Shown here one piece after another: positions 7,603-52,061 of a stretch of DNA of 52,168 bases (position 1 is its first letter; the number at the start of each line of letters is the position of its first letter). The notes beneath the pieces were generated by a model. It did no database searches. It saw only the letters and a list, made by a program, of their open reading frames with translations, and was not told the DNA's origin. The stretch comes from a virus, in IMG/VR virus record IMGVR_UViG_3300027917_000058, positions 1 through 52,168 of that record. One strand, written 5' to 3'. The translations under genes and the position numbers were made by a program.

Positions 7603-7814
7603 GTTTCCTCAAACCGATGGCGAGCCTCGATAAGATCCCGGTCTGAAAGTGTGAAGTTGTGGACCGCCGATTCAGACTCAGGACAGTGGTGATGGAACCT
7701 GTTGCACTCTGGGCAGAGATAGCCAAGGACCCGCTTTCCGCAGAAAGGTCTGGAGAACCTGAGTTTCCATCTCCCCAGGCAATCGGGGTGGGCGTGGCTC
7801 ATCCAGAAGCTCAT
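7584..7814 (-). CDS. Small Cys/His-rich protein between terminase subunits
   Basis: ATG 7814 overlaps the stop of the small terminase (ATGA). The 76-residue product has C12, C25 and a CPECNRFHHHCPE cluster, which looks like a zinc-binding fold. It sits between the Nu1-like and GpA-like genes, a position empty in lambda. It may be an accessory packaging or DNA-binding factor, but I know no matching family. Confidence 0.65.
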   Translation of the reverse strand: MSFWMSHAHPDCLGRWKLRFSRPFCGKRVLGYLCPECNRFHHHCPESESAVHNFTLSDRDLIEARHRFEETWKPKS

Positions 7815-8452
7815 TTCCCATCCTCCATCCACTCCCTGATTCTCTTCGCCCGCGCCTTCCCAATCCCAGGTACTTCCGTGAGTGCGGGTAAATCCAAAAG
7901 ATCGGAGAGGGAGTTGATCCCGGCACCCTGCAACTGTTTCCTGGCAGGGAGATCAGGTGGCAGCCCATCATCACTCACCCGCTGCTTCGATTCCCTGACA
8001 ATGGCTCGCAGTGCGTCATCTACCGCAGGAGACAGGATAGCCTGGACATCTCTCGCGTCATCGAGCCCCACGAGCCGGGGGGCAATCGATCCCGGGAGAT
8101 TCCGAATGTTGGACCTGACCATGTCGAAGGCTTCCGCCATCGCCGCCTTGTGGGACTCTACCGTGATAAGCGAGCCCTCCTGGGTAGCGAACTCAAGCTC
8201 CCGGCGTTTCCGTTCGATGCGTGCGGTGAGCAGCTTTTCTTCGGAGAGATCCGATTTGCGGCCCGTGCCTTCCGCAAGCCGTTTTTGGTGGGCGATGAAA
8301 TTCAGGACGGATTCCTTCAGACGATACCTCCCCCGGCCATCCTTCAGGACGATTCCCTCCTCGACCATCTGGATACACCTACGGGTTGTCACCCCCAGCC
8401 ATGACGCCAGTTCGTTCAACCCGACGTGGGTTACGCCATTCGACTTCGCCAT
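7811..8452 (-). CDS. Terminase small subunit, Nu1-like, with C-terminal HhH
   Basis: The N-terminus carries a winged HTH (GLNELASWLGVTTRRCIQM, about residues 11-29), as in lambda Nu1 and related small terminases that bind cos. It is followed by a helical KLLTARIERKRRELEFA stretch (74-89), typical of Nu1/terS proteins. Unusually, residues 175-209 form a helix-hairpin-helix module with VPGIGKARAKRIREW, a non-specific DNA-binding motif. The gene directly precedes the terminase pair and abuts the DnaC-like gene (TAA then ATG), leaving no space for a cos site immediately upstream. The family call is good; the HhH extension is unexpected. Confidence 0.85.
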   Translation of the reverse strand: MAKSNGVTHVGLNELASWLGVTTRRCIQMVEEGIVLKDGRGRYRLKESVLNFIAHQKRLAEGTGRKSDLSEEKLLTARIERKRRELEFATQEGSLITVESHKAAMAEAFDMVRSNIRNLPGSIAPRLVGLDDARDVQAILSPAVDDALRAIVRESKQRVSDDGLPPDLPARKQLQGAGINSLSDLLDLPALTEVPGIGKARAKRIREWMEDGK

Positions 8453-23172: not shown

Positions 23173-23437
23173 GATCGCGCTCCCACTGAGCTATCTCGGC
23201 GTCTCTTTGACGGCAAAGTTGAATCTGTTGCCGACGCTCCGCAATCAGTTTCTCTTGGTCAGCGATATGCAGTTCGAACTGCTCGATGACGTTTTTCGCC
23301 CTGGCGACATCGGCCTCCAGCGCATCTATCTTCCAGAGCGGATACTTCTTCCGGGGATGCGGGGGGATCTCGTAAAGATCCACCCCGTTCCCACGGTCAA
23401 TGAGCTTCGCGCCCTTCGGAAGCCGTTTCTTGGTCAT
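23141..23437 (-). CDS. Coiled-coil protein, 98 aa
   Basis: ATG 23437 overlaps the preceding stop (ATGA). A basic N-terminus is followed by a long coiled coil (about residues 34-90: LWKIDALEADVARAKNVIEQ and on). Possibly a scaffolding or trimerisation part of a fibre assembly. No family recognised. Confidence 0.6.
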   Translation of the reverse strand: MTKKRLPKGAKLIDRGNGVDLYEIPPHPRKKYPLWKIDALEADVARAKNVIEQFELHIADQEKLIAERRQQIQLCRQRDAEIAQWERDRAESDFPSGE

Positions 23438-25821
23438 ACCGTCACCACGGCATCTTCTGTCCGTACCGCCGCAACACTCAACCCATTGCTCTGTACGGTC
23501 TGGTCGGAAGTGAACGGCTTCCATCCCTTCAGCCGGAAGACGAACCGCGCATAGACATCAGCGGAGTAGATGTAGGTGTTGGAGATCGAATCTGAGACCG
23601 CCACCTGGGCAAAGAACGGTACCCAGACCCAATCCGACGTTGTGGTGTCGAAGGGCAGCACGTTGATCGAATAACCGTCGCCGGAAGTCCATGTGAGCGA
23701 TTGCCCGGGAGCGGATACCGTTGTGATCTCATCGGTTGCATCGATGCTGACGATGAATCCCCATTCGCCGGTCGTGGTATTCAGGACTGTGTCCCCGACG
23801 CGGCAGTCATCGGTGCCGCCGAAGTCCGCAGCGGTATCCTCCAGCGTGTTTCCAGATGAGCCGCCCGTTGCCGTACCGGATCCAGCGTCAGTCTCCAGCG
23901 TGAATGTGCTGGTTGCCCAGGAGGCGTATCTGAGCAGTGCTTCCGGCTCCTCGGAGTCTGACTTGTCAATGATCTTGACCACGCCAGCAGCAGGTTCGTC
24001 GGAAGCAATGCTGGTGCCGATCACTACCGTAGTCGCACCCGCCGATTGAGCCGTTCCCAGGTAACGATCCCTCTCGATGGGTCCCGTGGATCCGTCGCGC
24101 CGGAAGCAGCCGCCCCGGTCGCCCGCCGTGAGCCCCGTCAGGGCGACGGCGATCTCGTTGGGCGGATCCTGCGTAACACCCAAATCATCGATCAACTGGT
24201 ACGCCTTGATGTCGCCGGAATCCAAATCCGTGACGTATACCCCGGCTGCGCCGAAGAAGGTGCCACCGGCAAAGGTGCCCAGCGGACTCTGCTTCTTCGG
24301 TGCGATGGTGCCAACACCGCCCGCATCGATCGTCGCTGAGTTCGTGCCGTCGCTCACGGTGTTTGTGGCTCCAAATGTCCCCCTGACATTGGAAAGGATG
24401 ACAATGTCTTCCGGTGAGGAGTGGTAGGCCACGATGATGCCCGTAGCTCCGCTCGTCTGGTCCGTGAGCGTATTGCCCTCGACAAACGAGCCAGGGGCGG
24501 GCGTGGCAGTCTTCAGGCGGATAACCGACCCGATGTACTGCTCACCATCTTCCTGCGAGCCAGAGACCCCGATCTGCGTACTGGAACCCCGTCTGGTGAT
24601 CCACTTCAGGTACTCGTAGACCGCAGCCAGGGTTTCAGTGTTGCAGTCGATTTCGATTGAATACGGACGGCTCCCGTTTCCGTTATTCAGATCACGGGAG
24701 ATCGCGCCGAAGCTCAGGGTCGCCGTCGAAAGGGCGGGACCATAGTTCGCCGGGGACCCGGATGAGGTGGCCGATTCCGTTGAATCTTCTCCGGTGATGA
24801 GTTCGCCAGATTGGAAGTCGGTCAGGTCCTTGCCGACGAGGTAATACTGGATTGAGGTGTCCGTGACGTAGCTGGTCAGGATGCCCTTCGCACCGGAGGT
24901 CCCGCCAGTAATCACCTCGCCCACCGTGAACGCGCCGGAATGGGCTCCGGTGGCGATTGACCGCCATCCGGTCTCATTGTTCAGGTCCACATCAGTAGCG
25001 AGCGGGGCGGGCTGGCGACCACCGCCACTCAGGTCAGCGGTGAAATGGTCGTAAAGGGTGTTGGCCTGTCTCGCGAAGACCGTCACCAGCCCAGAATCGA
25101 TCAGGGTGCCAGCCTCTTTGACCAGCACCAGTACATCTAAGTGATCCGCTTCGGCATCCAGCCACCAAGAGGTGAGCTTCAGGTCATCTTGGATCAGATA
25201 GATGTCCGTGTCGTTCTTGATCTGGGCCAGCGAGTAGAGGTTCGTCCACAGGTTCTCGCCGCTCTCGGCACCGTCGCCAGAATCGAGATCGAAGTCCCAT
25301 CCGGTCCCCGTGACATTCTCGGGCGTGGTATCATCAAATTGGGTCGAAGAGGTGTTTCTGACCCAAACGATGTCATCGCCGTTGTCTGCCCAAAGGATGG
25401 CACCAGTAGCCCCGGAGGTGCCTCCAGTGAGAACGACCCCCTTGTCAGTGTACCCGTCGTTGCCTTGGGTGGGCGCACCGTCTCCGGTGTACTTCAGCCT
25501 TGTGATGCCGAATCCGCCAATAGGGGAGGTGTCTTCGGTGCCGAACTTCGTCCAACCATTCGACTCGATTGCCCCCGCATAGAACGCCTTGGCAGACGTG
25601 GGATCCATGAACCACGGATACAGTAGCTCATAGTTCGTCGGCGTGAGCCCGTCCATCGGGGACGCATCGTCCAGGGTCCCGGGCTCATCGAAAACGTCCA
25701 TGAGATAGGAGTACAATTCGTTAGCAGTATAGGTCGAATCGGGAACCCCGTTCGTGAACCCGCCAACATAACTAAGGATGCCGTTGACATAATCAATGGC
25801 GAGGTCAGCACTCAAAGGCAT
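23434..25821 (-). CDS. Large beta-rich structural protein with three GGTSGA repeats
   Basis: The 795-residue acidic protein starts MPLSADLAIDYVNGILSYVGG. It contains three copies of an approximately 40-residue module, about residues 125-165, 300-350 and 450-500, each with TGGTSGAxG or a variant followed by a beta segment. The rest is beta-rich with many Asp/Gly/Thr and the C-terminus contains TFTLETDAGSG. This is typical of long phage fibre or tail-accessory proteins. Placement far after the tape measure and hub suggests a receptor-binding or accessory fibre role. Confidence 0.6.
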   Translation of the reverse strand: MPLSADLAIDYVNGILSYVGGFTNGVPDSTYTANELYSYLMDVFDEPGTLDDASPMDGLTPTNYELLYPWFMDPTSAKAFYAGAIESNGWTKFGTEDTSPIGGFGITRLKYTGDGAPTQGNDGYTDKGVVLTGGTSGATGAILWADNGDDIVWVRNTSSTQFDDTTPENVTGTGWDFDLDSGDGAESGENLWTNLYSLAQIKNDTDIYLIQDDLKLTSWWLDAEADHLDVLVLVKEAGTLIDSGLVTVFARQANTLYDHFTADLSGGGRQPAPLATDVDLNNETGWRSIATGAHSGAFTVGEVITGGTSGAKGILTSYVTDTSIQYYLVGKDLTDFQSGELITGEDSTESATSSGSPANYGPALSTATLSFGAISRDLNNGNGSRPYSIEIDCNTETLAAVYEYLKWITRRGSSTQIGVSGSQEDGEQYIGSVIRLKTATPAPGSFVEGNTLTDQTSGATGIIVAYHSSPEDIVILSNVRGTFGATNTVSDGTNSATIDAGGVGTIAPKKQSPLGTFAGGTFFGAAGVYVTDLDSGDIKAYQLIDDLGVTQDPPNEIAVALTGLTAGDRGGCFRRDGSTGPIERDRYLGTAQSAGATTVVIGTSIASDEPAAGVVKIIDKSDSEEPEALLRYASWATSTFTLETDAGSGTATGGSSGNTLEDTAADFGGTDDCRVGDTVLNTTTGEWGFIVSIDATDEITTVSAPGQSLTWTSGDGYSINVLPFDTTTSDWVWVPFFAQVAVSDSISNTYIYSADVYARFVFRLKGWKPFTSDQTVQSNGLSVAAVRTEDAVVTV

Positions 25822-25853
25822 TGTTATTCTCCTCTCGTCGGGGTCCCAACCCT

Positions 25854-27716
25854 CTATGTGTTAATGGGATCTTCGATCAAAGTAACGATCACATCTAACC
25901 CTGTGCTTCCGACGACCTGGGGGCTGACCAGATGCTTATACTTCGGGTCGTCGGCTGCACTCGACTTCCTGCTCCTGACCTCAACCTCTAAGTCGCCCTG
26001 ATAGTTGAAGGCCGTATTCTGCACAATCCCACTCGCGTTCGTGTCCGAACCCCCGGTCCCACTGATAAGCTCATCCCCCTTCGTCACCGCACCAACTGTC
26101 TCCATCGCGTAGATCCCTGTCTGGGCGTTCTGGACCGGATCCCCGGCTTCGTCATAGACAGTGACCTTCAGCGTCACGGTCGTCTGGAAACTTACCGTCG
26201 AACCCGTATAGGTTTGGGCGTTCGAATTGGTGTTGCCGATGGTGATGGACGAACCGGACGTGTTGTTCACGTCATAGGTGTTCGCCCCGAACGTGAAGTT
26301 CACATAGCCATAGGGGGATCCCGCTGCGCTGGGATGCTCGATCGCCCGGGTATTCGCCAGGAAATTGCAATGGGAGATGTCTATCGATTCGTTCCAGAGC
26401 AGGGCCGCATCGCTGCTTCCCTCATAACCAGCGAAGGTACAGTTCCGCGTTTCTGCCTGTCCGATGTCCACCTGACCGCAACCGGAGAAGGTCACGGTCG
26501 TCATGTAGTGTCCGGTTGCCGCTGGCAGGGACGTAGTTCCCTCAATCCGGAGAAAGAGCGAGCCGAACAGGCCGATCTCGGTAATGGTTTGGTCCCAATC
26601 GAAATAGGCCGCTTGCCCGTGCGCTGGATTGTCTTGGGCGAATACGCTACCACCAAAGCCGACCCGATCCTCGTCGGTTCCAGAAGAATCGCCCACCAAT
26701 ATCCGCGTCACCGCTCCGGTGTCCTGCGCGGAAATCATGGAAAGCTGAGTATGATCCTGGTCCGCGAAGTAGACGACATCGCCCTCACTCAGGAACGCGG
26801 TGCGGTTGGTGCCACTCAAGTCTCCGATCGTGAGCGGGAAGTTGACCTCAAACTCCCCCAGCTTGGACTTCGTTACAACCCCATACAAATACGTTGAGGT
26901 GCCCTGGTCGTAGTCATAGATGTCCTGAAGCGTGATGCACTGATCGATGGTCCTACCGGATGCGCTTGCCTCGTCTGTCAGGGCCTCGTCCACAGTCATC
27001 GTAGTGGTGCCCACCGTGTTGACTGTCAGGATTAGGTCATTGTAGGTGGAACCCCTCACCACAATCCTATCCCCGGAGGAGTAGCCATCGGAAGAGAAAT
27101 CGCCGCTCGCCCGGGTGATGGTCTTCGTGCTGGCTGTGAAAGCGAGATTGACACCCGTGGTAGAAATGGAGCCCGTCACTTCATAGTAGCTCCCGAAACG
27201 GATCGCATCGATCGCCATCAGCGTTGACTTGGAAGATGTCGTCTGGAGGACGAACCCGACACCGATACGTCGGATGGCGGTGAGGCTAGGACTCCCGGAC
27301 CCACGGTCGGCGGTCTGGGAGGCATCCACGCATATGAGAGCCCAGCCACCGCCCACCCACGCCACATCACTGCCACCCACGCGGAAATCCGAATAGGTCC
27401 CGGTCCATGAGGAGGTCGAGTCTGTGATCCTTACATAAACGCCATAGTTGCTGAACGTGTCCACCGCGCCCTTCGAACCGACCCAAACCCAGATCAGGAT
27501 AAGGTTGGCGGTGACATCGATGTTGGAGCCATACTGATAGCCATACCCAGATTCAGCCTGGACGTTGGGGGTGCAGCCAATGGAGTTCGCGTTCTCGATA
27601 TAAATCTCCGAATCGAGGCTCCATTTCCCGGTATTCGAACCCCAAGCACTCCAGCCGGTAGTGGATTCCGCGTCCGCAGCCGTGGTCAAATCATGCGTGA
27701 TGGTAGGTGTGCCCAT
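25854..27716 (-). CDS. Large beta-rich protein, possible parallel beta-helix
   Basis: I start it at ATG 27716, overlapping the upstream TAA, with GGAGGAG before it. The 620-residue product has an N-terminal LamG-like segment (about 10-170). It also has a central stretch with repetitive turns (HYMTTVTFSGCGQVDIGQAETRNCTF, around residues 395-460) resembling a beta-helix, and a C-terminal carboxypeptidase-regulatory-like domain (VTVYDEAGDPVQNAQTGIYA). This is a fibre/depolymerase-like architecture, but no catalytic residues can be assigned by eye. Confidence 0.55.
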   Translation of the reverse strand: MGTPTITHDLTTAADAESTTGWSAWGSNTGKWSLDSEIYIENANSIGCTPNVQAESGYGYQYGSNIDVTANLILIWVWVGSKGAVDTFSNYGVYVRITDSTSSWTGTYSDFRVGGSDVAWVGGGWALICVDASQTADRGSGSPSLTAIRRIGVGFVLQTTSSKSTLMAIDAIRFGSYYEVTGSISTTGVNLAFTASTKTITRASGDFSSDGYSSGDRIVVRGSTYNDLILTVNTVGTTTMTVDEALTDEASASGRTIDQCITLQDIYDYDQGTSTYLYGVVTKSKLGEFEVNFPLTIGDLSGTNRTAFLSEGDVVYFADQDHTQLSMISAQDTGAVTRILVGDSSGTDEDRVGFGGSVFAQDNPAHGQAAYFDWDQTITEIGLFGSLFLRIEGTTSLPAATGHYMTTVTFSGCGQVDIGQAETRNCTFAGYEGSSDAALLWNESIDISHCNFLANTRAIEHPSAAGSPYGYVNFTFGANTYDVNNTSGSSITIGNTNSNAQTYTGSTVSFQTTVTLKVTVYDEAGDPVQNAQTGIYAMETVGAVTKGDELISGTGGSDTNASGIVQNTAFNYQGDLEVEVRSRKSSAADDPKYKHLVSPQVVGSTGLDVIVTLIEDPINT

Positions 27717-28132
27717 TAACCGATTCTCCTCCAACGATGCCAGCCGCACACAGCCGGTATCACGAGAGTCGCATACGTCTGGTCAGAGACCATTTCGTTC
27801 GCGAGCTTGACGCGCATCCCAGGATGGGCCTCCCCACCAAACCCGGTTACATCACTGCCGATACAGTAGATCACTTCTTCAAAGCTCGGCGGGGAGACCT
27901 CATCCAATGTTTGGGGTGCCTCGTGGTCCAACCATACCCAAGTGTACCCATCCCAACGCGGATCGCTTATCGCGTCCGTCAGGGTAGGGTAAAAGTGAGC
28001 GTCATAATGGGTTTCCCCCCTCGATGGATCAATCACGATCGGAACGAGTCCGAACATATTCAGTAGCCTATCGATGTAGGCCAGATCACGCCCCATCGCG
28101 TTTGATTCGTGAAAGAAGAGGAGGTGGGGCAT
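27716..28132 (-). CDS. Hypothetical protein, possibly SPOUT-like
   Basis: ATG 28132 overlaps the spanin-like stop by 1 bp (TGATG). The 138-residue product has MPHLLFFHESNAMG, a charged centre with DPRWDGYTWVWLDHEAP, and a C-terminal FEEVIYCIGSDVTGFG and TLVIPAVC. The last two resemble the knot of SPOUT RNA methyltransferases (vGsDxxGf and ATLVIP), but other parts of the fold are not evident. It lies between the lysis genes and a fibre gene, which is odd for an RNA methylase. Unknown is the safest call. Confidence 0.5.
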   Translation of the reverse strand: MPHLLFFHESNAMGRDLAYIDRLLNMFGLVPIVIDPSRGETHYDAHFYPTLTDAISDPRWDGYTWVWLDHEAPQTLDEVSPPSFEEVIYCIGSDVTGFGGEAHPGMRVKLANEMVSDQTYATLVIPAVCGWHRWRRIG

Positions 28133-28839
28133 CAGTACCTCGCTTTGTGGAACTCGTCGTCGAACTGGTTCGCGAGCAACATCCAACCCGCGCCCTTCAG
28201 TAGCTCCCAGCCGATCCCCTTCCAACTGAGTTCCGGCAACCAACTGAAATGTCTTCCCGGGGGAGCATTGCAAACGTCCGGGTCCTGTGTCACACTCTCT
28301 GGGATCAGCGAGAATGGATCTTCCGCCGTGAGTAGCAAACTGGCAGAACGCACCCCGGGCTCATTGCCACAGGTGATCCTTGCCTCCACGGGCACGGGCC
28401 GCATCAGGTTCACACGCACATCGAAGACGCCACGCCAAGACGGATAGAAGATTTGGGCATCGCCATCGAAGGCGAATGGCCCATCAGCCCCGGCGAACTC
28501 GTAGGCTTTCGTCGTATCGTTTATCTCTGCCGGGACGTTGACCGTATCGATCATACGGATCGTGTCCACCCGGAGCTTCGCCCTCGCAAGGGCAACGGTG
28601 GTCTGATCCAGTTCTCGGTCAATCGCATCGCGTTCCGTCTCCGTCTGAATGATCCGAAGCTGGTAGGCATGGATCGAGTCGTTGAGCGAAGCGAGTTGGA
28701 GCAATCGCGCCGTATCCTGAGCCGCAGCCAGGGAATCGGCAGTGAACGCCTGTTCGCGGTATACCCTCGCCCGGGTAACGGCATAACCGAAACCGCTGGC
28801 GAGAGCCAAGAACAGAATGATGATAATCACCTTCTTCAT
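28132..28839 (-). CDS. Spanin-like inner-membrane protein
   Basis: The N-terminus is a single signal-anchor helix (MKKVIIIILFLALASGFGYAV), followed by a long helical periplasmic coiled coil (about 50-105). This matches inner-membrane spanin (Rz-like) design, which with a lipoprotein partner disrupts the outer membrane. The protein is longer than usual (235 aa), with extra beta-rich sequence at the C-terminus. It lies next to the other lysis-like genes, supporting the call. No lipoprotein partner was identified. Confidence 0.55.
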   Translation of the reverse strand: MKKVIIIILFLALASGFGYAVTRARVYREQAFTADSLAAAQDTARLLQLASLNDSIHAYQLRIIQTETERDAIDRELDQTTVALARAKLRVDTIRMIDTVNVPAEINDTTKAYEFAGADGPFAFDGDAQIFYPSWRGVFDVRVNLMRPVPVEARITCGNEPGVRSASLLLTAEDPFSLIPESVTQDPDVCNAPPGRHFSWLPELSWKGIGWELLKGAGWMLLANQFDDEFHKARY

Positions 28840-45248: not shown

Positions 45249-45743
45249 CTAGCTCCTCACTTCGGGGTTATCTGTGCGCGTGTGGAAGTGGATCTGGATC
45301 GCGATCTCCCGCATGGACACCACCGCCGACGAATCGTCATACATCGTGACGAAATCCTCCTGCCCCTCCTCGCTGATCCAATGCGCGAGACCGCCCAGGG
45401 TCGGTTCGCTCTGCAACGCCTGGATCACCCAATTCGTTCCTTCGTCCACAGCGTCCGATGACAATAGCTCGTCCGCGTTTGCGGCGATGGCAATGGTCAG
45501 GTTCAGGACCCGTTTCAGGGCTGTACTCTTGTAATGGGAGCGTTCTGTCGGCTTCTGCCCTCCCATGTGGACGACCACCAGCGGCCCCTCTTGGACGTGC
45601 TTGGGCATGATCGGCCCGATACGTTCCCGCTGGACAGTCAGGTTGGATGGCGGGGTGAACGTATCCCCATCGATCGATACACTGGCTTCCTCCAGCCTTG
45701 TGACAACGGCTTTTTGGATCTGGAGTGCAACCGAATCAGCCAT
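45249..45743 (-). CDS. Putative tail terminator (gpU-like)
   Basis: The 164-residue protein is placed right after the head-tail joining gene, where lambda gpU lies. Its outline (LQIQKAVVTRLEEA start, conserved LNLTIAIAANAD core and ISEEGQEDF) resembles minor tail proteins that cap the tube. Supported by position and outline. Confidence 0.65.
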   Translation of the reverse strand: MADSVALQIQKAVVTRLEEASVSIDGDTFTPPSNLTVQRERIGPIMPKHVQEGPLVVVHMGGQKPTERSHYKSTALKRVLNLTIAIAANADELLSSDAVDEGTNWVIQALQSEPTLGGLAHWISEEGQEDFVTMYDDSSAVVSMREIAIQIHFHTRTDNPEVRS

Positions 45744-46798
45744 CAGGGTCTCAGGTTCCGTTTCAGGGCGATATAGGCTACGCCGCCATCAAGAGGGGTT
45801 TTCCACTCAGCGACGACCCAAGATTCGCCTTCGATCTTTATCAAGGTGTTCTCTTCCAGATCGGGAAACACCGTGGCGTCACCGATCAGGATTTTCGCGA
45901 GCCCCTGCACGGAGCCAAAGTTGCCCATGATGTCGTCGTAGGTCGGATCTTCGACATGGAAGTAGGCCTCCTGGCCCCGGTATGTCACCAGCTTCCCATC
46001 CGTGGCTTGGATGATCGCCTGGAGGTGCGTGTCCGGGAAGAACTCGCCATAGTCTAGAGGAGAAGGGATGACAGCCTCGGTCACGGGACCGGAGACATCG
46101 GTATCCTTCACGATCTCCGCATAGGGAGATCCGCTCTGATGAATAGTGACCGTGGCCCCATAGGAACTCGACTCCTCAAACTCGGTGACTGCGAATGGCT
46201 GGATCGTGAAGTCGGGTTCGTAGACGATGCTGCCATCGATCCCGTTCTTCAGGACCACACAGAGGATGTCTGCCTCCGGGCTTTGAAAGAGGATGGTATC
46301 ACCAAACTCTGAGCGACCAATCAGTATGTCCGCCGTGGTGTCTGCGATCACCGTGGTCGAGCCCACCACCACCGTAGAGCCCAGTTGTACCCAATCGTCG
46401 TCGCTCTCGGCCTCCTCCACGGCAACAGACCGGGAGACGTTCTTGTAGTAGAACTTGGCTTCCCGTTGGCCAGATCCATTGTCCACTCGCAGGGTGCCGC
46501 GAAGGATCAGGAACCCGCCGTCTGCGATCGTCGGTTTCGCAGTGGAGATCATCGACCCCGAACTGGAGCCGGTATGCCAGAATATGGCGGGGAAGCCTCC
46601 ACTGCCGCTCTGGATCCTAAGCCCGAATCCGCCAACGCCATCCTCGTACTTACTCACAAGGACAGCGTGTTTTGTCGGCGTCCAATCCGCCATAGCCAAT
46701 GCAATTCTCACATCGAGATTGATGATGTCGAACGCAGGGCTATCAGGCGAGGATGTGTAATTGTCCTCGTTCCCTGGCAGGAAGAGTTTGGACGCCAT
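45743..46798 (-). CDS. LamG domain fused to a gpFII-like head-tail joining domain
   Basis: Residues 1 to about 215 form a LamG/concanavalin-like domain (DVRIALAMADWTP, TADILIGRSEFGDT, GIDGSIVYEPDF). Residues 245-351 match the lambda gpFII head-tail attachment fold (TYRGQEAYFHVEDPTYDD, VFPDLEENTLIKIEGESWVVAEW, DGGVAYIALKRN). gpFII plugs the portal-tail junction. The fusion would place a putative sugar-binding domain at the head-tail connector. LamG domains are common in tails but I know of none attached here. Start ATG 46798, stop overlapping the next gene. Confidence 0.7.
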   Translation of the reverse strand: MASKLFLPGNEDNYTSSPDSPAFDIINLDVRIALAMADWTPTKHAVLVSKYEDGVGGFGLRIQSGSGGFPAIFWHTGSSSGSMISTAKPTIADGGFLILRGTLRVDNGSGQREAKFYYKNVSRSVAVEEAESDDDWVQLGSTVVVGSTTVIADTTADILIGRSEFGDTILFQSPEADILCVVLKNGIDGSIVYEPDFTIQPFAVTEFEESSSYGATVTIHQSGSPYAEIVKDTDVSGPVTEAVIPSPLDYGEFFPDTHLQAIIQATDGKLVTYRGQEAYFHVEDPTYDDIMGNFGSVQGLAKILIGDATVFPDLEENTLIKIEGESWVVAEWKTPLDGGVAYIALKRNLRP

Positions 46799-46803
46799 CG
46801 GGC

Positions 46804-47109
46804 TTAGTCACTCCCTCCCAGAGCCGCTTCGATGGCGGCTGCACTTTTCGGCCCGATCCCCTTCAGCGATGTCAGGTCGTCCACTTTTAGGAGTGATTCC
46901 ACGGTAGCAAACCCAGCCGCCTCAAGGATCGAGCGGTACGGAAAATCATCCGGCAGCTTCACCTCCGTCAGTTCTGCCGGTTCCATGATTTCGACCGCGT
47001 GTCCGATCTTCTCCAGATCCTTCTGGCTCACGTCGAGGATTTCGGACGGCGTGCCGGGGATGTGCCATCGGCTTCCCCGCTTGATCGTTTGTAACGCTTT
47101 GGCCTTCAT
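46804..47109 (-). CDS. HhH protein at the gpFI position
   Basis: I start it at ATG 47109 with GGAGAG upstream. The 101-residue protein ends in a helix-hairpin-helix module (FPYRSILEAAGFATVE, LTSLKGIGPKSAAAIEAAL). It lies between the capsid and gpFII genes, where lambda has gpFI, a packaging accelerator that contacts the prohead and terminase. The same HhH fold caps the small terminase, suggesting a functional link. Exact role unknown. Confidence 0.6.
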   Translation of the reverse strand: MKAKALQTIKRGSRWHIPGTPSEILDVSQKDLEKIGHAVEIMEPAELTEVKLPDDFPYRSILEAAGFATVESLLKVDDLTSLKGIGPKSAAAIEAALGGSD

Positions 47110-47133
47110 CGTGCCTCTCCTCTCTTGCGATAT

Positions 47134-47210
47134 GGCTGGGCTGAGAGCCCCCATCCGGGGAACTCCCAGCCGCAGCCGGTCAGCGGGTTGGCTAGGATCA
47201 ACCGGCTGAC
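47134..47210 (-). terminator. Tandem hairpins after the major capsid gene
   Basis: GGCTGGG (47134-47140) pairs with CCCAGCC (47165-47171) around an inner CCCC/GGGG stem; a second 12-bp stem, GTCAGCGGGTTG with CAACCGGCTGAC (one mismatch), spans 47179-47210. Both lie in the gap between the capsid stop and the next ATG. No T-run, so this is more likely an attenuator or mRNA-stabilising element of the abundant capsid transcript than a full terminator. Confidence 0.55.
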
Positions 47211-47218
47211 GCTACCGC

Positions 47219-48259
47219 TTACCCATTCAGAACGTCACAGAACAAGCTGGCGTTCGGGCGGTAAGGCACGACGAGCGGTGCGCTCTGCATGAGCAGCAAA
47301 CGCCGCGAAGGATCTTCCTCGACCCAGGACTTCAGGAAGAGGCGGCTGGCGCGATGGCTCGCGGCGTAGTCCTTGACCATGCCGTAGTGCCGCACGCCCT
47401 CCAGATCGTTGCCGTTGATGACGATGACGGAGCCGCTGGGCATCATATTCCCAGCCGTGCCGTCCTCATCAATGTACACATCGGAATAGACCCAGATGTT
47501 GAAGTCCCCGATGGAGCCTGGATTCCGAACGCGGTTGGCCGCGAGCGGACCCGTCTCAGCCCGGGAGGTGGAACCCCTCCGGGTTTCGAGCAGGGCAGTG
47601 ACCGCCGTATGCTGCCTGAACACAGCCCAGACATCCGGGGCCATGATGACATCGCGGGCCACCCCGCCTCCGTTGGTCTGGATCAAACCAGCCCATGTCT
47701 CGATGTCGCCAATCGGATCGGAGGCGGTGGTGTCCGACCACTTGTCCGTGCCGGTCAAGTCGGCAACAGTCAGGGCTGCGGCTCGCCCGAAGTCCACGAC
47801 CACATCATCGAACCCCTCACCGGAGATCGTGACCGTGCCCGTGCGAAGCACTTCGGAAGCCATCACCTCTTCCCGGCGCGTGAGCATCCGGTTCTGGTTC
47901 TGTACCGCCTGAGCGAGAAGACGCTGTGTCCGCTCCGCAGCCGAAAGGGAGCCCAAGGGCTGCTCGCCGGGGAGCCTCTTGACCGGAGCGTCTGGGTCCC
48001 AGAGCCGCTTGTCCTTGATGTACGCGGGCTTGAAGGTGTTGGTGGTGTACCCCTCATGCTCGACAATCCTGCCAGCCTTGAGAGGTGATACGAACGGGCT
48101 GATCCGGGGCTGTTCGTCCGTCACGTCGAAGTGAATCTCCTCCGACTCCTCAACCTGTTCGGTCCTGAAGAACGAGTTGAGGAAGAACGCAGCCGGATCG
48201 ATCTCCAGCTGCGCGACGACCCGGGCCAGCACGCCGGTTGTGAAAATATCGAGTGCCAC
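47219..48259 (-). CDS. Major capsid protein, gpE family
   Basis: 346-residue homologue of the lambda capsid protein E: LDIFTTGVLARVVAQLE start, KDKRLWDPDAPVKRLPGE and RREEVMASEVLRTGTV. It forms the icosahedral shell with the decoration protein upstream. It uses GTG 48259 with a GGAGG site, an unusual start for the most abundant structural protein. Confidence 0.9.
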   Translation of the reverse strand: MALDIFTTGVLARVVAQLEIDPAAFFLNSFFRTEQVEESEEIHFDVTDEQPRISPFVSPLKAGRIVEHEGYTTNTFKPAYIKDKRLWDPDAPVKRLPGEQPLGSLSAAERTQRLLAQAVQNQNRMLTRREEVMASEVLRTGTVTISGEGFDDVVVDFGRAAALTVADLTGTDKWSDTTASDPIGDIETWAGLIQTNGGGVARDVIMAPDVWAVFRQHTAVTALLETRRGSTSRAETGPLAANRVRNPGSIGDFNIWVYSDVYIDEDGTAGNMMPSGSVIVINGNDLEGVRHYGMVKDYAASHRASRLFLKSWVEEDPSRRLLLMQSAPLVVPYRPNASLFCDVLNG

Positions 48260-48314: not shown

Positions 48315-48710
48315 TCAAACCGGGGTCGCGGTCACTGGATCGACCAGATAAATCTGGTAGTCCCAGAGTCCTTGCTTGATCGACGCGGCAGTGTGGCCCG
48401 TGCCGATGGTGAGTTGATCCTGATTGAACCGGCCCCGGGTGTAGGCGTGCATCACCTTGTCCCCACCCGAAGCGTCCATGTCCTCTGCGGCGATGAGGCG
48501 CGGATTCTCGCTGCCGTCCGTGGAAGCGGAAAGCGAAGCAGCCGCCTTGCCGCTCGCTGTGATGATGCCCAGCACCGTGCCGCGCACCACGTTTTCTCCG
48601 CTGACCAGGGTAATCTCCTCTGCCTGTGCGCTGGGCTCACCGCCCGCCAACAGGTTGTCGGGAGTGTAGGTCCCCTGTGCAGCAAAAGACGGGTCCATTC
48701 CTTCAGCCAT
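48315..48710 (-). CDS. Head decoration protein, gpD-like
   Basis: 131-residue protein of the lambda gpD/HDPD family (NLLAGGEPSAQAEEITL, RGTVLGIITASGK, KVMHAYTRGRFN). It trimerises on the shell to stabilise the full head. GGAGGA precedes ATG 48710. Position between protease and capsid matches lambda. Confidence 0.85.
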   Translation of the reverse strand: MAEGMDPSFAAQGTYTPDNLLAGGEPSAQAEEITLVSGENVVRGTVLGIITASGKAAASLSASTDGSENPRLIAAEDMDASGGDKVMHAYTRGRFNQDQLTIGTGHTAASIKQGLWDYQIYLVDPVTATPV

Positions 48711-48765: not shown

Positions 48766-50088
48766 TCACCCGGCCACAGCAGCCGAAGCGAAATGACGGG
48801 TGACGGACGCGGCGACCTGTTCCTCCGTGACCCCTTCATCGGAGGTGACGGTGGTTGAAGCGACATCCTTCAAATCCTCCTCGTCGGCTGTCAGGGCCTC
48901 GTCGGTGGCTTGAAGTTTCCGCTTCTCCTGCTCCCCCTTGGCTGCGAGAATCGCTTCCGCAGCCCGACCGACCGTGCCGGTCGGATCCTGCATCATCCCC
49001 AGCTTCACCTTTTCGAACCCTGCGGCGTCGAGGGCGTGGATCTTGAGAATCCTTTCCCTCTCCCCGGAAGCCGCCTCTTCCCGGATCTCAGCCAGAAGAT
49101 CGGGATGGTTCGATGCCAGGAAAGCGCGATCGATTTCGACCGCTTCCAGCGTGGTTTCCACAACATCGGCCATGATTTGAGTCTCCCTGATTTGGTGATC
49201 GAGCCCTAACGAAGCCGCAAGGCTCTGTTGATTCGTCGGAGCCGAACCGGCCCCGTCAGAATATGCCTCTATCAGACCCTCAAGGGTCCCAACGCCATCT
49301 GCCAGACCTCCCGATACTGCGTCCGATCCAAGCAGGATGCCGCCCTTGTGTCGTGTGATCGCACTCTCCTCTACCCCCCGGTAGCTGGCGACGACCTCCA
49401 CGAAGACGTTCCCGATCCTGTCCACCAACCCCTGGATCTTCGCCTTCGCTCTCGCCGCCTCGTCAGCATCTTCGGAGAAGGGATCTACACGTTTGTCAGG
49501 GGAGACGGAGGATACAAACTCCATTCTCTGGATGCCCTCCATTTCGTCCTGCTTGCTGTAATCCACCACACTCAGGACGGCTCCGATGCTCCCCAACATC
49601 GAAGTCTTGGATGCCACGATCTTGTCAGTTGCAGCCGCCAGCCAGTACGCAGCCGAAGTACCGAGATGGGACACGTAAGCCGTTTGCGGCTTCACGCCCC
49701 GGAAGCTGTAAATGAGTTCGGCTGTCTCAGCCACTCCATCCACCTCACCCCCGGGGCTGTTGATGTCGTAGATGACGTGACGGACATCCGGGTTCGCCAT
49801 GACCGTTCCGATGTCGGTAGACAACCGTTCGAAGGAGGTCGCCCCGGAGATCGCGGTGAACAGGTTGGCGTACCGGAACAAGGGACCGGCGACAGGGATG
49901 ATCGCGACCCCGTTCCTGACAGTGGCTTCTACTGTGTTGGGGATCGGTTTTCCCCATTGCTTTTCGATGGCTTGCAGGATCGCGTCCCGGTGATTGAGAT
50001 CCCGGTCAGCGATTGCAGCCATGAGCCGCAGGTAGTCATCGAGAATGGCCCATTGCCTGGACTCGATGAACCGAAGTGCGAGACTCAT
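48766..50088 (-). CDS. S49 peptidase, prohead protease with scaffold-like tail
   Basis: N-terminal SppA/ClpP-like domain: DINSPGG (108-114), nucleophile Ser145 in GTSAAYWLA and likely catalytic Lys199 in SPDKRVDPF. The C-terminal third (about 315-440) is helical and charged, like the scaffold part of lambda C/Nu3. It matures the prohead and probably also scaffolds it. Overlaps the portal stop by 4 bp. 440 residues. Confidence 0.9.
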   Translation of the reverse strand: MSLALRFIESRQWAILDDYLRLMAAIADRDLNHRDAILQAIEKQWGKPIPNTVEATVRNGVAIIPVAGPLFRYANLFTAISGATSFERLSTDIGTVMANPDVRHVIYDINSPGGEVDGVAETAELIYSFRGVKPQTAYVSHLGTSAAYWLAAATDKIVASKTSMLGSIGAVLSVVDYSKQDEMEGIQRMEFVSSVSPDKRVDPFSEDADEAARAKAKIQGLVDRIGNVFVEVVASYRGVEESAITRHKGGILLGSDAVSGGLADGVGTLEGLIEAYSDGAGSAPTNQQSLAASLGLDHQIRETQIMADVVETTLEAVEIDRAFLASNHPDLLAEIREEAASGERERILKIHALDAAGFEKVKLGMMQDPTGTVGRAAEAILAAKGEQEKRKLQATDEALTADEEDLKDVASTTVTSDEGVTEEQVAASVTRHFASAAVAG

Positions 50089-51740
50089 GCCGCATCCTCC
50101 TGTTCATTGGACTCGGTCCCCGCGTCTTCTTCCCCACCCTCCTGGGCCGGGACAGACTGAGCAGCAGAACTCGCTGCATAGGCCATCCCGCTGTTTTCCA
50201 GCCGCGCCTTCTCTGCCTCACGCTGCGGCTGGACCTCGCTGTCCCAATCGCGCCCCGTCATCGCAGCGGTTTCTTCCGATCGCGTGGTGAAACCGCCGTC
50301 CACGCGAATGACCGCAGCCTGGGCGGAATCTTTCTCGTTGATCGCGCCGGGGGCATCGCCCACCCATGTCGAACCCAGCCACGCCATCTTCTTCATGTCA
50401 TCCACAAGGAAACCCGGGAGATCGATGAGCCCAGCGATCACAGCATCGATCATCACCCACTCATAGACCATCTGGAGGAAGTTCTGTGAGAGCCATGTCC
50501 GACGCCCCCGGAAGAACCGCCACGCATCGAGCAGTGCGGCACGGGAGGCCGAATAGCTCTGTCCGTAGACGTGCATAAGGATCTCGTAGGGGATCTCCAA
50601 TGCCATACCGATCTGCTGGACGATGGAACGGAAGAAGGGATCGTATGCGTTGTTCGGACGGTTGGGGGAAGCCGTTGTGATGTCCTCCCCGGGGAGTAGA
50701 TCAACCACACCTCCGGGATTGAGAAAGATGTCACCCGTCTTTGTGGGGATTTCTTCGGAGCCTTCAGGAGCGGAGGGGAGCCCACCCGTCTGGGGCTGCT
50801 CGGTTTTCACGAAGACCGTGAAGAGGGACGAGACGACCGATGCGGTGAGTTCATAATCGGTCAGGCGAGAAATCTGCTTCAACGGCTCCACCACGGGAGC
50901 CAACGCGGGGACGCCCCTCCGCTGCCCAGGACGCCTCTTGTCGAAGAGAAGCCTGGAAAGGGGAACACCGTTCCGGCCCGTCTTCACGATCCGGTACCAT
51001 CTCGCGTCCCCCGCCCTGTCCAGAAGAATCTGACCGGGATGACGGTCAGCAACATGATAGGCTCTGGTCACGCCCCGCGCATCGCACTCCACTCCCCCCG
51101 TGATCCGATCCGTGTCCATCGTGTTGTTCGGATTGCTGATCCGGTCTGCCTCGACAAGCTGAACCTTCAATGGGACCAGATTGCCAGGACGAGAATCACG
51201 CCGACGTACCACCAGCACATCGCCGGATTCGAACACGCCACGAAACGCCATCTGCTGGAGATCCATCATGGAAACGTCTCCCTCGAAATCGAGAGAATCC
51301 TTCACCCATTTCCAGATTCGCTCCATCTCCCGCTGCTTGCCCTGCGCGGCTTCCTCGGTGATTCCCAGGAATGTTGAATCAATCCGGGAGTGCAGACGCA
51401 TCCCGGTTCCCACCACGTTTGTTGTGGCGGTATTCGATGCGCCCGCAGCGATGGCACTGTTTCGAGTCAGGTCCCGGGAGCGACCACGGATCGTCTCTGC
51501 CTGATACAGAAAGTCCTCGTTGGGCTCCGACGCTAGAGGATGCCACTCCTGAAGACTCTTCTTCTCCGAAGATCCAGCGGTGTAACCCATCGATGAGGCG
51601 AGCCGGATCGCGTTCGCCTCTTGGATCCGTGCAGCCAGCCGCTTCACGCCCCCGGTGGGAGAGAAGAAGCTGACGACCTTGTCATAGAGTGTGGATTTGA
51701 TCTGAGTCTGGGGGGCGGGTCTGATCGTGACTCTGCTCAT
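50085..51740 (-). CDS. Portal protein, gpB family
   Basis: 551-residue lambda-family portal: SRDLTRNSAIAAGASNTATTNVVGTG, FRGVFESGDVLVVRRRD and LVEADRISNP are characteristic. It forms the dodecameric channel for packaging and ejection. ATG 51740 overlaps the gpW-like stop (ATGA). Confidence 0.93.
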   Translation of the reverse strand: MSRVTIRPAPQTQIKSTLYDKVVSFFSPTGGVKRLAARIQEANAIRLASSMGYTAGSSEKKSLQEWHPLASEPNEDFLYQAETIRGRSRDLTRNSAIAAGASNTATTNVVGTGMRLHSRIDSTFLGITEEAAQGKQREMERIWKWVKDSLDFEGDVSMMDLQQMAFRGVFESGDVLVVRRRDSRPGNLVPLKVQLVEADRISNPNNTMDTDRITGGVECDARGVTRAYHVADRHPGQILLDRAGDARWYRIVKTGRNGVPLSRLLFDKRRPGQRRGVPALAPVVEPLKQISRLTDYELTASVVSSLFTVFVKTEQPQTGGLPSAPEGSEEIPTKTGDIFLNPGGVVDLLPGEDITTASPNRPNNAYDPFFRSIVQQIGMALEIPYEILMHVYGQSYSASRAALLDAWRFFRGRRTWLSQNFLQMVYEWVMIDAVIAGLIDLPGFLVDDMKKMAWLGSTWVGDAPGAINEKDSAQAAVIRVDGGFTTRSEETAAMTGRDWDSEVQPQREAEKARLENSGMAYAASSAAQSVPAQEGGEEDAGTESNEQEDAA

Positions 51741-51961
51741 CGCGGCACCACCGTTCTGACCCTCATTCCACCGGCTGTATCACGAGCCAATTCCTCATCG
51801 AGATCAGCCAGAAGCTTCCGAAGCTGATCGATGTCATGTTCCCGGTACCGGCGACCATTGAACTCTGCCTCCCGGAATCCCCCCAGGAGACGTAGGAGTG
51901 CGGCATAACACGCATCCCGCAACGCCTGAACCTGCGCTCGCTCTGCGTCTGTCAGTGCCAT
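51737..51961 (-). CDS. gpW-like head-tail joining protein
   Basis: First gene of the late operon. I start it at ATG 51961 (MALTDAERAQVQAL); ATG 51973 is also possible. About 74 residues with an N-terminal helix, then FNGRRYREHDIDQLRKLLADLDEEL, the gpW beta-hairpin and second helix. gpW closes the portal after packaging. The longer upstream frame would be translated through a terminator, so it is rejected. Confidence 0.75.
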   Translation of the reverse strand: MALTDAERAQVQALRDACYAALLRLLGGFREAEFNGRRYREHDIDQLRKLLADLDEELARDTAGGMRVRTVVPR

Positions 51962-51979
51962 CTGGTATCCCATCCATAG

Positions 51980-52018
51980 AAAAAGCCCCCTTCCCCACCG
52001 ATCTGGTGAGCCGGGGGC
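51980..52018 (-). terminator. Leader terminator upstream of the late operon
   Basis: On the minus strand, GCCCCC (52018-52013) pairs with GGGGGC (51990-51985), with an inner TCACC/GGTGG stem and a run of five T's at 51984-51980. It lies between the late promoter and gpW, so transcription from the promoter would stop about 75 nt after starting unless read through. Good canonical terminator. Confidence 0.75.
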
Positions 52019-52061
52019 CATCATCAGGGCCAGTAGAAACCGCTGATCTGTCCTGACCACG

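Follow-up and report, generated by a model that had tools for sequence, protein, structure and literature searches.

A predicted LamG domain fused to a gpFII-type head-tail stopper in a lambda-type head gene block

The DNA analysed here, which we refer to as the window, is IMG/VR virus record IMGVR_UViG_3300027917_000058 over its full length of 52168 bases. The initial annotation had placed a gene at 45743-46798, and this is a real ORF with exactly those ends on the minus strand, encoding 351 aa from an ATG start. The gene block around it has the textbook lambda-type head order. Specifically, the minus strand reads through an adaptor candidate, the portal, an S49 protease, gpD, gpE, a gpFI-position protein, the ORF under study (a LamG-stopper fusion) and the tail terminator; after the terminator come a DUF7210 protein, an Ig-bearing major tail protein and then the tape measure. 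The features used below are as follows.

51737..52060, minus strand: head-tail adaptor candidate, upstream of the portal like lambda gpW (phrog_118, E 9.8e-4)
50085..51740, minus strand: portal protein, lambda family (PF05136, E 5.3e-92)
48315..48710, minus strand: head decoration protein, lambda gpD family (PF02924, E 7.5e-17)
47219..48259, minus strand: major capsid protein, lambda gpE family (PF03864, E 3.7e-65)
46804..47154, minus strand: gpFI-position protein with a C-terminal helix-hairpin-helix (Pfam HHH, E 1.2e-5; synteny with L001, L005, L006 and L166)
46811..46819, minus strand: GGGAGGGAG, likely ribosome-binding site of the fusion ORF (from the sequence; 12 nt before the ATG)
46121..46798, minus strand: LamG-like β-sandwich module, residues 1-226 of 351 (phrog_5313, viral-contig relatives, AlphaFold, PDB fold matches)
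46040..46120, minus strand: predicted flexible linker, residues 227-253 (pLDDT <50)
46048..46056, minus strand: TAG-ACT-ATG, one base out of the stopper frame, a possible remnant of an ancestral stopper start (DNA comparison with L166)
45743..46039, minus strand: gpFII-type stopper (head-tail joining) domain, residues 254-351 and stop (stand-alone ORFs of relatives, fold matches)
45249..45743, minus strand: tail terminator, expected to form the ring that partners the stopper (phrog_4204, E 5.9e-11)

The adaptor candidate at 51737-52060(-) has a weak PHROG match (E 9.8e-4) and sits at the very end of the record. Lambda gpFI works with terminase during packaging, and given this role it is curious that the helix-hairpin-helix tail of the gpFI-position protein, 46804-47154(-), is also found at the C-terminus of the small terminase subunit, 7811-8452(-) (40% identity over 42 aa, E 1.3e-4). 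After the tail genes, large ORFs of 795, 631 and 235 aa (23434-28839(-)) have no convincing family match and are candidates for tail-tip or fibre proteins.

The N-terminal ~215 residues of the fusion had been read as a LamG domain, and this reading is supported by phrog_5313, AlphaFold and Foldseek, with the boundary now drawn at residue ~226. A PHROG search with the window protein gives a single match, phrog_5313 (E 6.1e-17, residues 11-210), and tblastn against phage records finds Streptomyces phages only, the best being phiSASD1 gp38 (E 3e-6, residues 3-211); the matching proteins adjoin the tape measure and are annotated as tail or hypothetical proteins. The AlphaFold model, built from a 44-row alignment (mean pLDDT 83), contains two confident domains and a disordered stretch at residues 227-253, and its LamG part lies mostly above pLDDT 90. 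When the whole model was compared with the PDB by Foldseek, it matched the LG domains of neurexin, agrin, laminin and perlecan (E about 1e-6 to 1e-5), and a fold search of BFVD returned LamG proteins at E 8e-17. Pfam Laminin_G does not exceed its cut-off in the window protein or in its phiSASD1-type homologues, neither half of the window protein passes a Pfam cut-off, and solved structures searched by sequence, using the whole protein as well as a profile of each half, gave no significant match. Based on the modelled fold, we assign residues 1 to ~226 to a LamG (laminin-G/neurexin-like) β-sandwich. Structure prediction, which the initial annotation had proposed as a check, thus gave two separate domains and no single fold unrelated to LamG or gpFII.

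The C-terminus had been matched to gpFII, and this is borne out by fold matches to lambda, R4C and SPP1 neck proteins and by gene position. With the C-terminal 103 residues folded alone together with four relatives (pLDDT 83), the best PDB match in Foldseek is from the lambda neck (8k37_M; E 1.5e-3, prob 1.00, 20% identity, TM about 0.6), and further matches are lambda 8xow_f, the R4C stopper 8gtf, the SPP1 connector 7z4w and other neck proteins. The modelled domain begins with a helix (10-17), continues with strands at 21-25 and 28-35 and, after an insertion, ends in four strands, which is the gpFII-type fold. Lambda gpFII and the other siphophage stoppers (8k37_M, 8xow_f, 8gtf and SPP1 gp16 in 7z4w) are like the window domain in fold and size, and share with it the N-terminal helix before the β-sandwich and the site between a gpFI-like gene and the tail terminator; the window domain comes after the capsid and gpFI genes and before the terminator, the gene position of gpFII. 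In contrast, gpFII itself has 117 aa and no extra domain, whereas the window stopper is preceded by about 250 residues. PF05354 (Phage_attach) gives no match above its gathering score in the window protein and sub-threshold matches in two relatives (L001 E 0.13, L005 E 0.039; cut-off 26 bits); a sequence-only match to gpFII is therefore weak and seen solely in relatives. Because the family of the fold hits and the gene position agree, the stopper call stands despite the modest E-values, and we assign residues ~254-351, as modelled, to a gpFII-type stopper. By homology, the window protein would be placed at the neck. In lambda, six gpFII subunits make up the stopper ring that lies between gpW and gpU, and a ring of their N-terminal helices receives the adaptor barrel (PMC10721106), and in R4C the N-terminal helix of the stopper likewise touches the adaptor (PMC10276861).

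Three viral contigs (L001, L005 and L006) and a contig of an Acidobacteriota MAG (L166) carry a stand-alone stopper of 101-103 aa at the matching gene position, abutting the gpFI-position gene and 57-76% identical to window residues 250-351. These stoppers begin where the LamG and linker of the window end; at the junction, L166 reads MPEFFPDTHLQ and the window YGEFFPDTHLQ. The stoppers of L001 and L166 have a Shine-Dalgarno. No LamG was found in these four records, of which the longest viral one is 56 kb and the others may be fragments. Since four close relatives have a stand-alone stopper, the LamG was added at the stopper N-terminus, which makes the fusion, by this comparison, the derived state.

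The junction itself retains a possible trace of this event. The linker covers residues ~227-253 (27 residues, pLDDT <50 in the AlphaFold model), and an out-of-frame ATG lies at 46050-46048, where the window reads ATG-GC-GAG-TTC and L166 reads ATG-CCT-GAG-TTC; no Shine-Dalgarno precedes this ATG. This one comparison, with L166, suggests that the old stopper start disappeared when a single base was deleted in the course of fusion. No in-frame ATG occurs from residue 200 to the stopper core, and the nearest upstream GTG codons (230 and 239) have no Shine-Dalgarno. With no usable internal start, production of a free stopper is unlikely, and probably every one of the six ring subunits carries a LamG.

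To place the LamG among its relatives, a profile scan of viral contigs was used, which found 146 related stretches, 80 of which were kept. At most of these 80 other loci the module starts about 87 residues into an ORF of ~900-1300 aa, directly after a tape-measure-sized ORF; the upstream ORFs were taken as tape measures by their position and from annotated Streptomyces-type phages. In the phrog_5313 proteins phiSASD1 gp38, ShakeNBake gp24 and Chymera gp18, the LamG module is 27-34% identical to that of the window and has the same boundaries and terminal strand, and homology to the family holds over the module (E 6.1e-17; alignment of 40 homologues). Their module, however, is preceded by ~87 aa in a protein of 900-1300 aa encoded after the tape measure, and thus lies at the tail tip, whereas the window copy lies in the head-neck block and would be at the neck. 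The best explanation of these sequence relationships is that the LamG was drawn from a pool of modules in the tail proteins of Streptomyces and similar phages. A donor copy elsewhere in the window is rejected, as tblastn finds no match there.

Among the 41 LamG sequences aligned, that of the window diverges most. In a leave-one-out comparison it departs at 10 of the 30 positions that at least 90% of the others share (the median is 1), and the family-invariant D27 and D104 (100% in the other 40) are replaced by N and R; core residues D29, R31, R100, T102 and G189 are kept. A glycan or Ca2+ site is not present in every LamG. The GC content of the LamG part (0.57; GC3 0.70) is like that of the neighbouring genes, which argues that it is not a fresh import. 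In a FastTree phylogeny the window copy forms a very long branch, grouped loosely with L085, L086 and L087 (support 0.55-0.90); these also hold oddly placed modules, and because the window branch is so long the grouping is suggestive only.

The initial annotation had also called for a search for the same fusion, and the collections and literature searched yielded no second example. Viral contigs queried with the full protein, the C-domain and a C-domain profile gave no further fusion; nor did a search by way of the tail terminator find one. The genome contigs contained one unfused relative only, and 396 genomes of the phylum of that relative contained no fusion beyond a weak partial match. No phage record had the C-domain. 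As these scans are seeded with short patterns, their negative results apply to closer relatives, and distant fusions may be missed. In BFVD, the best matches of the full model were LamG only, and none among the best 50 listed clearly spanned both domains. In the 80 capsid-related loci, homologues of the C-domain appeared as sub-threshold matches only, some of them at the same gene position.

Phage necks with carbohydrate-binding modules, phage tail proteins with LamG and stoppers of the gpFII type are each known already, and the earlier description of a sugar-binding module at the neck as a novel placement is too strong in light of published examples (PMC6669499, PMC10966104). The neck-passage proteins of lactococcal 936 and TP901-1 phages have carbohydrate-binding modules at the neck (PMC6669499), the kind of display proposed here for the window LamG, and one of these modules, from a 936 phage and fused to GFP, bound the host with low efficiency (PMC6669499). 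These are nevertheless separate collar or fibre proteins of 500-900 aa, with a BppU-like N-domain, a coiled coil and another lectin fold, and not stopper fusions; the window protein has 351 aa, with LamG followed by stopper and no BppU-like N-domain or coiled coil. The neck fibres of cyanophage A-1(L) (gp82-gp81-gp80) also bear a distal carbohydrate-binding module comparable to the window LamG, but these fibres consist of separate proteins that sit on a 15-mer ring of the neck, and their module does not bind the host (PMC10966104). The part of the claim that stands is narrower: a LamG attached covalently to the stopper itself was found nowhere else and appears to be new, within the reach of our searches.

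We propose that the window protein is a hexameric neck stopper with an N-terminal LamG decoration. As in lambda gpFII, six copies would form a ring between the adaptor and the tail terminator, and the 27-residue linker would allow six LamG domains to hang outside this ring. Least certain is the last step, in which the LamG ring would bind surface polysaccharide multivalently and with low affinity, as an accessory adhesin that helps receptor binding by the tail tip. Taken as a whole, this explanation seems to us evenly balanced between right and wrong. Sugar binding by the window LamG is predicted from its fold, and we know of no ligand for any member of the phrog_5313-type LamG family; the occurrence of the fusion in one genome only and the exceptional divergence of its LamG both weigh against the explanation. 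For adhesion to mucus we found nothing for or against. Few parts of a siphophage are as conserved and compact as the stopper. More tentatively, and with more doubt than belief, we suggest that a DNA-gating stopper ring here may double as an obligate, covalent, sixfold host-binding lectin collar, made when a LamG module moved from the tail tip to the opposite end of the tail. If this is true, modules can shuffle onto the genome-gating ring without killing it, and the ring offers a natural place to display exactly six copies; if host sugars are bound, adhesion would extend beyond the tail tip and separate collar fibres.

The main alternative to an adhesin is that the LamG serves structure or assembly, bracing the portal/adaptor/stopper junction or aiding head-tail joining in the manner of a collar. 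Known necks lend this some substance: the N-terminus of lambda gpFII contacts the adaptor (PMC10721106), so an N-terminal LamG could be constrained within the neck; a ring of neck-passage N-domains in TP901-1 covers gaps at the portal-adaptor junction (PMC10747895); and the A-1(L) module shows that a lectin-fold domain at the neck need not be an adhesin. The loss of conserved family positions from the window LamG is in keeping with such a role as well. However, the stoppers of four close relatives have no LamG, and a linker predicted to be disordered suits a free-hanging domain better, and we regard bracing as rather unlikely. It is less probable still that the fusion is a recent neutral recombination and the LamG a passenger that the stopper tolerates without a selected role. 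A fusion confined to one genome, a highly divergent LamG and an out-of-frame ATG that resembles the ancestral start minus one base all fit a passenger, but 250 stop-free residues with a confident fold, kept core residues and neighbour-like composition point to maintenance over decay, and selection would probably remove a passenger from an essential hexamer.

The same ATG raises the prospect that adjacent LamG and stopper genes were joined by a false single-base deletion in a metagenomic contig: one extra base would turn ATG-GC-GAG into a start comparable to ATG-CCT-GAG in L166, and the fusion is known from a single record. With the base restored, however, the LamG reading frame would overlap the stopper by 57 codons, and the restored stopper ATG would have no Shine-Dalgarno, unlike those of L001 and L166. 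We give this artefact little credence, and if it were real there would still be a LamG gene at the neck. As for the idea that the protein is neither LamG nor stopper and that both likenesses are due to chance, neither family has a Pfam model that passes its cut-off in the window protein, yet the PHROG match (E 6e-17), the tblastn match (E 3e-6), the two-domain AlphaFold model and independent Foldseek matches for both halves lead us to reject it, along with a single-fold reading, as barely conceivable.

Other members of the LamG family also depart from the usual placement. In L085, L086, L111 and L094 the module is placed at residue 277 or 841 of long tail proteins or lies in short ORFs of 460-490 aa. 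The viral contig L087 offers a parallel to the window, as a related LamG has there moved onto another virion ring protein: the module is embedded in a protein of 462 aa that looks like a major tail protein at its C-terminus (phrog_9522, E 5.7e-6). Unlike the N-terminal LamG on the window stopper, it is internal and apparently on the tail tube. A few genes upstream of this tail-tube-like protein (L087:7524-8912) is a separate Laminin_G_3 protein (L087:4728-5546; PF13385, E 1.5e-16), and the L087 virion may thus possibly carry LamG at two sites.
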